Positions 2,251 to 6,012 of a stretch of 64,000 nt of DNA are shown piece after piece. Location of the stretch: NCBI GenBank assembly GCA_003009795.1, contig PXPE01000001.1, positions 818,739 to 882,738 on the forward strand, written 5' to 3'. The position numbers and the translations under genes are program-made. The DNA is from Nanohaloarchaea archaeon SW_7_43_1 (GTDB lineage Archaea > Nanohalarchaeota > Nanosalinia > Nanosalinales > Nanosalinaceae). A model generated the notes under the pieces. The model had not been told where the DNA came from, made no database searches, and worked only from the letters and a program-made list of their open reading frames with translations. The first letter of the stretch is position 1; each line of letters starts with the position of its first letter.

Positions 2251-5200
2251 ATGCCTCAGCTTCTGAAATCCGATAAAATAGAATCGAGAACATATCAGGA
2301 AGTTATTGCCGCCTCCTCAATACAGAATAACACGCTAGTGGTACTGCCGACAGGACTCGGAAAAACTGTTATCGCCGCAATGGTAGCAGCGCAGAAGGCA
2401 GAAGACGGAAAAGTGATGTTTTTGGCGCCTACAAAGCCCCTTGCCGAACAACACATCAACACTTTCCAGGAGTTCGTAGATATAGATGAAAACGATAAAG
2501 CGCTCATGACCGGTGAAACAAGGCCGGATGAGAGATATAAACTATGGGCGGAGAAGAAAATGTTTTTCGGAACGCCACAAGTAGTTGAAAACGATCTTAT
2601 ATCCAATAAAGTACCAGCAGAGGATTTCTCCCTAATAATATTTGACGAGGCTCACAGAGCAACCGGAGACTACAGCTATGTATTCATAAGCGAGAAAATG
2701 CCGAACGCTCATAAACTGGCATTGACAGCCTCACCCGGAGGAACAAAGGAGAAAATCGATGAAGTAGCAGAGAACCTAGATATAGAGAACTATGAGGTCA
2801 GAACAGAGGATGACCCGGATGTAGAGCCCTATATCGAGGAAAGAGAAGTTGACTGGGTAAGAGTCTCGCTTGACGATAGCTTTGAGGAAGCAAAGAAAAA
2901 CCTGGAGAAAGCCTACCAGAAACAGCTGGAGAAACTAAAGAAAAACGGCCAGCTGAACTCTACAAATAATGTCTACAAAGGCGAACTGCTGAAACTGAGA
3001 GGGGAGATAAGCGCCAAGTTGAGCTCGACTGATGACCCAAAGCTCTACAGGTCGATCTCTCATGTCGCATCCGCATTGAAGATCAGCCAGGCAGTAGAAC
3101 TCCTGGAAACACAGGGCGTATCCCAGTGCTACAGCTACATAAACGGGCTGAAAAATGATGATTCGAAGGCTGCGCAGAAAGCTTTGAACAACGATGATTT
3201 TCAAAGAGGAAAAAATCTTGTAGAATACCTGAAAAAGAAGGGAAAGGAGCATCCAAAGATTGACAAACTAAGGGAAATTCTAGGGGATATGGCAGAAGAT
3301 GAAAAAGCCATAGTTTTCACAGAGTACAGGGATACAACCGAGAAAATCGCAGGGGAACTCGAAACAGAAGGTCTGAACACCACTAACTTCATTGGCCAAC
3401 AAGGAGACAAAGGAATGAGCCAGACCGAACAGGCAGAAGTACTGGAAGAGTTTGAGGACGGAGAACACGATGTAATTGTCTCGACAAGTCTCCATCCCAA
3501 GGAAAATATAATATTGAGATCACCAGAAGGAGAGATCAAGGTTTGGGAGATAGAAGATTTTGTAGACAGTTTGACTGTAAAGGAAGGGGAAACAAGTAGA
3601 AAAATAAAATCTAACTGGGAGGTTTTTACAACAGATGGAGAAGAAACATTTTTCAAATCTGTATCGAACGTACATCGACACAAGAGGAAAAACAACGTAT
3701 TGAGATCAACTCAGAGAACAGCAGGAGACTTTCTGGTAACAGAAAATCATAGTATTTTCAGCTTTAACTCAGACGGAGAACATATACCTGATAAGCCCGG
3801 CGAAGATAAATTCGTAAACCTTGCTTGGGGTACACCCCAAATCGAGGAAAATAAGGAGATAGATTTAGCTAAGATGCTCCACAGGGAACTTCCTAAATGT
3901 AAAAAAGACATTTTTTTCTTTAGCTTTGAGAATCTGAATCAACCCAGAATAAGAGAGATTAACTCTGAAAGAATGTTCCTAAACAGTATAGAAGAGAGCA
4001 CTTTTATCAGGCAAATTTCAGAAGAATCAGGTCTGGACCCCAAAACAATTACTGAAGTCAGAAAACGTTTGGAAGAGAGAGATATTATAAAAAGCGAGGT
4101 GAACGGCAGGAAAAAGTTTGTAAGAACCACAAAAAAAGGGCGACAATACAAGGAATTTCTAAACTGGTTCGAATTAGAACAGGAATACTATAAAGGCAAG
4201 TATAGAATAGGTCTGGAAACTGTTGCCCAATCGCCAGAATACTACCGAGAATTCTGTAGCCTCCAACTTGAATTTTCGTACGGAAAATCAAAAGTTCCCC
4301 GATTTCTCTCAATAAAGGACACTGCCAGGTTCCTGGGGTACTTTGTTTCGGAGGGTCATGTAAGAAATCAGAAAAAAAGCGGAGAACTACTTCTCACAAG
4401 GGAATCCGATGACGATATAAAACAAAAGATGCAGGAGAGTATTGAAGAAGGTCTCTCGATGGAGACCAATACTAGATCTGCTGGCGTATTCATATCATCC
4501 AGAATACCTTATTACCTGATAAAATACGTGTTCAAATGCGGAACTTCAACAGAAGAAAAACAGGTCCCCTCACAGATTTTTTCTGGTAGTAAAGAAGCTA
4601 AATGGAGGTTTTTAGAGGCTTATTTTGAAGGCGATGGGTACTCTGATGATGGCAGAATAACTCTGAGCACGATTAGCAGAAAATTGGCAACAGGACTTCA
4701 TTTCCTATTAAGACAGCTGGGAATCAAAAAAATAGCAATCAGAAGAGAGGAAAGAGAAAAGCGCAATCATAGCGACATTTACAGAATAAAAATACATGAA
4801 CCTCTACTATTCAAACAGATAAGCGAAAAAGAAGGCAGAACAACATACTATGATCTAATCCCCGAAGCAGTAAATGACAAATCTGTCTTCAACGAAATAG
4901 GAAATAGCTTCGGAAAGGTAAGAGAAGGATGCAGAAAAAAACAACGACCGGAACAGAAAACTTGTTTTGATTACATAGAAGAAAACCAGAAATTAGAGGA
5001 ACAGCCAGAGTATGTCTACGACATTTCAGTAGAAGAAACCGAAAGATTCTTTGGCGGCACGAGCTTAGCATGTCTCCACAACAGCATCGGAGAGGAGGGA
5101 CTGGATATACCCGCTGTCGACTATGTTGTATTCTACGAGCCGGTTGCCTCAGAGATCCGGGATATACAGAGAGCTGGTAGAACAGGACGACAGGAGTCAG

Positions 5201-6012
5201 GAAAAGTATTCGTCCTGATAGCAGAGAACACCAGAGATGAAGGAAACTACTGGTCGGCTCACCATAAAAAGAAAAAAATGAATTCGGTTCTCCAGGAACT
5301 GAAAGACGAAACACGGGAGAAAGCACAGAAAACATTGGACGGATACAGTAATGAGGAAACAGAGGAAGATGAGGAGAATGATATCAAGGTCATAGCGGAT
5401 GATCGAGAAACCTCTATCTCCAAGAAACTGTCGAAGATGAACCTGACTGTGGAACAGGAAAGACTGGATGTGGCCGATTTTCTTGTTTCCGATAGAGCAG
5501 CGGTGGAGAGGAAGCAGGTATCCGATTTCGTGGACTCAATCGTAGACAACCGCTTGTTCTCCCAGATCACAGATCTCCACCAGTTCGATGTCCCTGTGAT
5601 AATAATTGAAGGAGACAACCTCTACACTCACAGAGACATTCATCCGAACGCCATCAGAGGAGCACTAGCCTCAATCAGTATGGACCACCAGATACCGATA
5701 CTCTGGACAGATGATGAGAAAGATACCGCAGAAACACTTGCATCCATGGCAAAGAGAGAGCAGGAGGAAGAGGAAAGAAACATATCAGTAAGAGGAAACA
5801 GGAGCGGGAAAACACAGAAAGAACTGCAGAAGTTTGTTACCGCCGGTTTACCTGATGTCAACAAGAAGATAGCGGAGAGACTGCTGGAGGAGTTCGGAAC
5901 AATTGAGAAAACATTTACTGCTTCAGAAGAAGAGCTCAAAAAAGTAAAAGGTATAGGCGAGAAAAAAGCCGGAAAGATAAGATCGATAATCGAAACAGAG
6001 TATAATGAATGA
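2251..6012 (+). CDS. hef: Hef-type helicase/XPF-family nuclease, interrupted by an intein
   Basis: Hef acts on stalled or branched replication forks. The host protein has a superfamily 2 helicase with motif I at residues 33-39 (PTGLGKT), DEAH at 132-135, the motif III-like LTASPGG and motif VI at 973-980 (QRAGRTGR). An XPF-type nuclease follows, with the ERKxxxD signature at 1086-1092, then a C-terminal helix-hairpin-helix region from about residue 1200. Residues 413-944 are an intein inserted within the second helicase lobe. Removing it joins DVIVST to SIGEEGLDIP and restores a continuous motif V region, giving a mature protein of about 721 residues. The ATG has a TATA-like stretch about 30 bases upstream. 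The next gene overlaps by 8 bases. Confidence 0.93.
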   Translation: MPQLLKSDKIESRTYQEVIAASSIQNNTLVVLPTGLGKTVIAAMVAAQKAEDGKVMFLAPTKPLAEQHINTFQEFVDIDENDKALMTGETRPDERYKLWAEKKMFFGTPQVVENDLISNKVPAEDFSLIIFDEAHRATGDYSYVFISEKMPNAHKLALTASPGGTKEKIDEVAENLDIENYEVRTEDDPDVEPYIEEREVDWVRVSLDDSFEEAKKNLEKAYQKQLEKLKKNGQLNSTNNVYKGELLKLRGEISAKLSSTDDPKLYRSISHVASALKISQAVELLETQGVSQCYSYINGLKNDDSKAAQKALNNDDFQRGKNLVEYLKKKGKEHPKIDKLREILGDMAEDEKAIVFTEYRDTTEKIAGELETEGLNTTNFIGQQGDKGMSQTEQAEVLEEFEDGEHDVIVSTSLHPKENIILRSPEGEIKVWEIEDFVDSLTVKEGETSRKIKSNWEVFTTDGEETFFKSVSNVHRHKRKNNVLRSTQRTAGDFLVTENHSIFSFNSDGEHIPDKPGEDKFVNLAWGTPQIEENKEIDLAKMLHRELPKCKKDIFFFSFENLNQPRIREINSERMFLNSIEESTFIRQISEESGLDPKTITEVRKRLEERDIIKSEVNGRKKFVRTTKKGRQYKEFLNWFELEQEYYKGKYRIGLETVAQSPEYYREFCSLQLEFSYGKSKVPRFLSIKDTARFLGYFVSEGHVRNQKKSGELLLTRESDDDIKQKMQESIEEGLSMETNTRSAGVFISSRIPYYLIKYVFKCGTSTEEKQVPSQIFSGSKEAKWRFLEAYFEGDGYSDDGRITLSTISRKLATGLHFLLRQLGIKKIAIRREEREKRNHSDIYRIKIHEPLLFKQISEKEGRTTYYDLIPEAVNDKSVFNEIGNSFGKVREGCRKKQRPEQKTCFDYIEENQKLEEQPEYVYDISVEETERFFGGTSLACLHNSIGEEGLDIPAVDYVVFYEPVASEIRDIQRAGRTGRQESGKVFVLIAENTRDEGNYWSAHHKKKKMNSVLQELKDETREKAQKTLDGYSNEETEEDEENDIKVIADDRETSISKKLSKMNLTVEQERLDVADFLVSDRAAVERKQVSDFVDSIVDNRLFSQITDLHQFDVPVIIIEGDNLYTHRDIHPNAIRGALASISMDHQIPILWTDDEKDTAETLASMAKREQEEEERNISVRGNRSGKTQKELQKFVTAGLPDVNKKIAERLLEEFGTIEKTFTASEEELKKVKGIGEKKAGKIRSIIETEYNE
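3487..5082 (+). mobile_element. Intein with LAGLIDADG homing endonuclease, inside hef
   Basis: This is an in-frame intein of 532 residues (host residues 413-944). It begins with Ser1 (SLHPKEN) instead of the more common Cys and ends in His-Asn followed by a Ser +1 extein residue. The block B motif VTENHSIF and a C-terminal block ending LACLHN are visible, so the splicing residues look intact. Two LAGLIDADG motifs are present, at about 695-703 (LGYFVSEGH) and 788-796 (ending YFEGDG), so the endonuclease also appears intact. Residues of about 571-640 look like an extra winged-helix segment before the endonuclease. The insertion lies in the conserved motif V region of the helicase, typical of inteins that target essential active-site sequences. 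Confidence 0.92.

Follow-up and report, generated by a model that had tools for sequence, protein, structure and literature searches.

Our analysis points to a class 1 intein that belongs to the PI-TkoII group, is mobile and carries a LAGLIDADG homing endonuclease, inserted in helicase motif V of the archaeal helicase/nuclease Hef. To this reading we assign a probability of about 0.88. The element lies in a 64,000-nucleotide stretch of contig PXPE01000001.1 from Nanohaloarchaea archaeon SW_7_43_1 (hereafter the window), with the following features in window coordinates:

2251-6012, + strand: Hef helicase/nuclease ORF with the intein inside, 1253 residues (NF010337, 1.7e-253; ERCC4, HHH and helicase domains)
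2251-3486, + strand: N-extein, 412 residues, with VST at its end; 397/412 residues identical to the same-genus Hef
3487-5082, + strand: intein, 532 residues, from Ser1 to His531-Asn532 (sequence, alignment)
3487-3840, + strand: N-terminal splicing (Hint) part, about residues 1-118 (Pfam, AlphaFold2 model, structure match)
3676-3681, + strand: Arg64-His65, candidate motif NX of Ser1 inteins (His65 invariant in 13/13; motif as given in PMC10189870)
3739-3750, + strand: block B TxxH (Thr85...His88; both invariant in 13/13)
3856-4272, + strand: counterpart of PI-TkoII domain IV, residues 124-262 (Pfam of 2cw7, profile comparison, isolated model, structure match)
3940-4179, + strand: winged-helix core, residues 152-231, with three helices, a two-strand wing and a fourth helix (AlphaFold2, profile, structure match)
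4273-4806, + strand: LAGLIDADG homing endonuclease domain, about residues 263-440 (Pfam, profile, model)
4312-4356, + strand: first LAGLIDADG helix with the acid Glu289 (E289 in 12/13; Asp in the viral intein L148)
4591-4638, + strand: second LAGLIDADG helix with the acid Asp383 (invariant in 13/13)
4954-5082, + strand: C-terminal splicing (Hint) part, VYDISV...LHN (TIGR01443, 0.017, just under its cut-off; alignment; model)
5083-6012, + strand: C-extein, starting with Ser+1 and IGEEGLDIP; 299/308 residues identical to the same-genus Hef

The model NF010337 identifies the host ORF as a Hef nuclease in which the helicase, the ERCC4 nuclease and the helix-hairpin-helix modules are all present. 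The intein occupies ORF residues 413-944 and enters exactly between the Thr and the Ser of motif V (VST↓SLHPKENI...SLACLHN↓SIGEEGLDIP, with arrows at the junctions); the codon for Ser1 stands at 3487, a His-Asn pair closes the element and the codon for Ser+1 follows at 5083. Joined without the intein, the flanks rebuild motif V, which is found as an uninterrupted Hef site, (V/I)STS(I/V)GEEGLDIP, in 26 of the 28 genomes of the phylum. One of the remaining two is the window's own genome, with the filled site, and in the other (G003) Hef was not found, the search there returning a weak helicase match. Further inteins were observed in the 956 kb genome G000, in the DNA polymerase II large subunit, the topoisomerase VI subunit B, PolB and an archaellum-type ATPase (loci L003, L004, L005 and L006), with the ATPase apparently bearing two.

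The residues diagnostic of splicing are retained throughout the family: S1, T85, H88, H531 and N532 are invariant in the 13 aligned inteins, and the +1 residue is Ser in 12 of them and Cys in one (L074). In addition, Arg64-His65, a column assigned by position, fits motif NX, which PMC10189870 describes for Ser1 inteins as a histidine after Arg or Lys. Among the Pfam models matched by the window protein, LAGLIDADG_3 (PF14528; 1.6e-11) is over its cut-off; the two modelled LAGLIDADG helices span intein residues 276-289 and 369-383. The Intein_splicing model reaches 2.6e-8, yet its 34.2 bits lie under the curated cut-off of 35.8, as do the intein terminus models and all the helix-turn-helix (HTH) families under theirs (HTH_24, 0.0017). 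Judged by its residues, the element is best classed as a class 1 intein of the Ser1/Ser+1 subgroup with a two-motif LAGLIDADG endonuclease. A preliminary description, made from the letters of the window, had named Hef as the host, motif V as the insertion point and 3487-5082 as the bounds of the intein, and had noted its Ser1 start, Ser+1, two LAGLIDADG motifs and intact key residues. The bounds prove to be exact; the NF010337 match (1.7e-253) bears out the host, and the restoration of a motif seen uninterrupted across the phylum bears out the site. The remaining points likewise hold, with S1 invariant across the family and both LAGLIDADG acids present alongside the class 1 splicing residues.

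We also uncovered the same allele in other archaea. A scan of the genomes of 84,980 species with the pattern Asn-(Ser/Thr/Cys)-(Ile/Val)-(Gly/Ala)-EEGLD-(Ile/Val)-Pro returned five stretches, all five of which are Hef inteins at the identical site (two were incomplete and later completed). Two of their records are assigned to Micrarchaeota, two to Pacearchaeota and one to Falkowbacteria. Searching 301, 371 and 87 genomes by profile added at least one further Hef intein (L129, in genome G701), bringing the Hef inteins at this site to seven with that of the window, in DPANN-type archaea of at least three groups beyond the window's own. Further members can have been missed, because the profile surveys scored the 3, 4 or 16 top-ranked candidates of each genome and the species scan was bound to a pattern that passes over sites of different residue composition (the G701 intein escaped it). 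The six other Hef inteins are 36-41% identical to that of the window; Ser1 is common to all seven, and the +1 position holds Ser in every case but one, which has Cys. Together they form one clade with a support of 100/99 in a tree of 39 inteins built with the winged-helix columns omitted (of the 70 inteins extracted, it excludes 32 and takes in PI-TkoII; five more rows were dropped before a second tree). The record named Falkowbacteria, a bacterium (L069, contig JAFCBY010000036.1), carries an archaeal-type Hef with its intein; the label is a doubtful one for a Hef gene, the more so because another genome of its group has the same kind of Hef intein. In one Pacearchaeota record the same Hef gene holds a second intein (L066:155-1678; FSTPQ↓C...HN↓CIAND) of a different intein group. 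No earlier description of a Hef intein was found in the literature searched on inteins in archaea and helicases.

The same-genus genome G027 has an empty hef site without a scar, the insertion being seamless, and its DNA beside the site matches the window at 567/600 and 564/597 positions (about 94.5% on both sides). Such a pair of genomes records a recent gain or loss of the element, for which gain by horizontal transfer would be the simplest reading, the alternative being a loss in G027. The G+C content of the intein is 38.4% versus 45.0 and 45.4% for the exteins, and at third codon positions 36.7% versus 48.8 and 49.2%. The phylogenies of the inteins and of their hosts are in conflict: in the Hef tree L069 (G032) and L129 (G701) have sister hosts (99/92), and so do L065 and L070 (94/89), while among the inteins L069 groups with L070 (100/99) and the window's own intein with L129 (92/94). 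Trees that constrain the inteins to the host groupings are rejected (AU p 0.009 for L069+L129 and 0.006 for L065+L070, for groups picked after the host tree, which has long branches, was known). Hence, the element has probably travelled independently of its host gene, as expected from homing; and, taken together with the empty site in the same genus, the conflict marks it as a recently mobile element.

These observations bear on two other accounts of its presence. That the seven Hef inteins, scattered over several archaeal groups, form one clade could be taken to mean that the intein is old, having been passed down vertically within Hef, and that most relatives have lost it; the 26 empty sites against the single filled one among the 28 genomes of the phylum, the tree conflict and the low G+C content of the intein relative to its exteins all speak against this, and we regard such a history as improbable. 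A distinct account would have the intein kept as a regulator of Hef, whose stress-responsive splicing switches the helicase on. In its favor, the sequence implies that motif V cannot form before splicing, and stress-dependent splicing is discussed for helicase inteins in PMC8301817. We nevertheless consider a regulatory role very unlikely, as the intein is absent from the same-genus genome and from the 26 phylum genomes with uninterrupted sites, and no conserved regulatory feature was seen.

Beyond Hef, the mobile intein proposed here has relatives in two further types of host. Three PolB inteins (L085, which came from the Micrarchaeota search, L130 and L009), all at the junction AN↓SFYGY, group with the Hef inteins. 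A second set is found on viral contigs (L148:5001-6500, L161:4965-6413 and L179:1762-3219) in helicases of the PHROG 16 type, where the inteins occupy the same motif V junction as in Hef, (A/G)T↓S...HN↓S(L/I)xDEG. The branch joining the Hef, PolB and viral inteins has a support of 92/95 in one tree, in which the viral intein L154 also falls inside it, and of 81/90 in another; the order among the three groups allows both Hef with viral (p 0.44) and Hef with PolB (58/23). A first viral scan with the single window protein found nothing, and two site patterns applied to the viral contigs then returned five and one stretches, covering two known contigs and one new helicase intein (L179); the matches L175, L177 and L180 were rejected by eye as unrelated proteins. 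In isolated phage records no relatives of the window intein were found, and the viral intein L148 gave one partial match there (26%). The L179 helicase seemingly bears a second intein, ending VTHN↓TCIASS near the Walker A motif, before position 1762.

The domain IV region, with its winged helix, follows the N-terminal splicing part and precedes the endonuclease, the same position as in PI-TkoII. AlphaFold2 models the whole intein, from the 13 aligned inteins, with a mean pLDDT of 87.8 and a pTM of 0.89, and the segment 124-262 alone with a pLDDT of 92.7 and a pTM of 0.84. The preliminary description had proposed an extra winged helix of about 70 residues (ORF 571-640), an uncommon addition that might sharpen target choice. 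The fold and its placement are real, and both models return a confident winged helix for this region, its extent being about 80 residues (intein 152-231, ORF 564-643); its supposed status as an uncommon, added module is not supported. The assignment of the winged helix to an ordinary LAGLIDADG fold was rejected, as it precedes that domain and folds alone in the AlphaFold2 model. Its presence in 7/7 Hef inteins excludes a chance resemblance. The segment profile matches MarR/SlyA-type regulators (best 1.8e-4), and the isolated domain matches the Sso10a, AspA, MarR and PadR proteins in fold with Z 8.4-10.3, values that are common among winged helices. Of the 139 residues of its model, 123 also align with PI-TkoII (2cw7, chain 134-261; Z 8.6, rmsd 3.7), in an alignment that, among the 50 structure matches listed, runs from the first to the last residue of the model. 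Residues 124-272 of 2cw7 constitute the named Pfam domain PF18714 ("PI-TkoII_IV"); scanning the window protein against Pfam gave no direct match to PF18714 up to an E of 1, and the PolB intein L085 reaches its cut-off (25.9 bits versus 25). A comparison by hhalign of the PolB domain IV segments with those of Hef gives a probability of 94.5 (E 8e-8), and the winged helix is also present in three PolB inteins. Thus, the module is common to the Hef inteins and to PolB inteins including PI-TkoII, and is therefore older than this insertion rather than added in Hef. HTH-type Pfam matches (E up to 0.1) were also obtained among 57 other inteins (e.g., HTH_3 in 3/57 and MarR_2 in 3/57). The position of the match was examined in one of these, L104:1501-3054 with a GyrB-like host, where HTH_19 falls at 158-214, between the splicing and endonuclease parts, so that a different type of HTH arm occupies the corresponding place.

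Across the seven Hef inteins the mean pairwise identity is 31.8% for the winged helix, versus 45.9% for the endonuclease and 42.4% for the N-terminal splicing part. As the least conserved part of the intein, the winged helix may have a changing DNA contact or be under weak constraint; its low conservation would not favor a shared, sequence-specific and strictly kept role. All three viral inteins lack the winged-helix core: they keep both ends of the domain IV region, with 48-50 residues in place of the 79-87 seen in the ten archaeal members. Small free-standing winged-helix proteins of the phylum (L023, L182-L185) match the winged helix of the intein, with a best value of 4.4e-7.

Two accounts of this domain compete or combine with the ordinary homing intein favored here. 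The likeness to MarR in sequence and fold, along with the matches to the free-standing proteins of the phylum, could suggest that a host transcription factor was the recent source of the winged helix, which would then sharpen target choice. Recent capture by the window intein was rejected given the region's presence in the seven Hef inteins and their PolB relatives, PI-TkoII among them; moreover, the winged helix evolves fast, and the effect of a published accessory domain was to relax cutting, not to sharpen it (PMC8966425), so that this scenario appears highly improbable. According to the same source, the enzyme of the Thermococcus litoralis VMA intein cut an additional site by virtue of its accessory domain, which is described there as a way of reaching new sites. 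With the winged helix of our family also its least conserved part, a gain in specificity is not the favored guess. The opposite role is possible, and we entertain it tentatively: an accessory domain that relaxes or redirects the endonuclease, thereby letting the lineage move between PolB, Hef and viral helicase sites, would be compatible with the homing intein. A hypothesis of this kind was proposed for archaeal VMA inteins (PMC8966425). It agrees with the occurrence of one restricted intein group at PolB and at motif V of both Hef and a viral helicase, and with a domain that varies most and is without its core in all three viral members. The two groupings allowed by the trees leave no single order of jumps, and the viral members without the core still sit at motif V, which count against it.

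The picture favored here is of an ordinary homing intein whose host site is new and whose PI-TkoII-type group is already known. The precursor Hef would lack a usable motif V for as long as the intein stays in place. In its removal, Ser1, aided by His65 and His88, would attack the Thr-Ser1 bond, the N-extein would pass to Ser+1, and cyclization of Asn532 would restore VSTSIGEEGLDIP. The endonuclease, with Glu289 and Asp383, is predicted to cut hef alleles that lack the intein, at that very codon junction, and the element would then spread as the break is repaired from the filled copy. The winged helix of the domain IV type would most likely provide an extra DNA contact for the endonuclease beside the cut site. 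It is conceivable, albeit rather doubtful, that a single lineage with an exchangeable winged-helix arm moved among PolB, archaeal Hef and viral superfamily 2 helicases, at motif V in both helicase types, and that the changing arm enabled these moves; if true, it would be a natural test case for the model in which accessory domains aid spreading. Our findings add Hef motif V as a host gene and site, for which no report was found in the literature searched, and point to recent movement among tiny archaea. Furthermore, the seven filled Hef sites, the near-identical empty one, and the relatives in PolB and in viral helicases, some having the winged-helix core and others lacking it, form a matched set for direct tests of accessory domains.

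Among known systems, the best match in both sequence and structure is PI-TkoII, the PolB intein of Thermococcus kodakarensis (PDB 2cw7/2cw8; PDB chain name PI-PkoII), with a profile E of 6.4e-50, a Foldseek value of 1.8e-32, and 489 residues of the whole model aligned to 2cw7 (Z 39.8, rmsd 6.5). The two share Ser1, the His-Asn end, the LAGLIDADG domain and a winged-helix-type domain IV before the endonuclease. They differ in that PI-TkoII resides in PolB and is about 22% identical over the structural alignment, and its domain IV, as aligned by hhalign, lacks part of the HTH; with Hef rather than PolB as host, the intein described here is kin to PI-TkoII and not an allele of it. The TliVMA and PhoVMA inteins (7qss and 7qst) likewise combine splicing, LAGLIDADG and accessory domains. 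In them, however, the accessory domain comes after the endonuclease and before the C-terminal splicing part, and they start with Cys1 (the structures are labelled C1A); PMC8966425 describes two intein accessory domains, that of TliVMA included, as HTH-like. The archaeal aLhr2 inteins of the RecA2 domain, described in PMC8301817, are homing inteins in another superfamily 2 helicase, a likeness drawn from their description. Finally, the winged helices of the MarR/SlyA, PadR and Sso10a types resemble the isolated domain in fold; these are free DNA-binding proteins, and the likeness extends to sequence profile and fold only.
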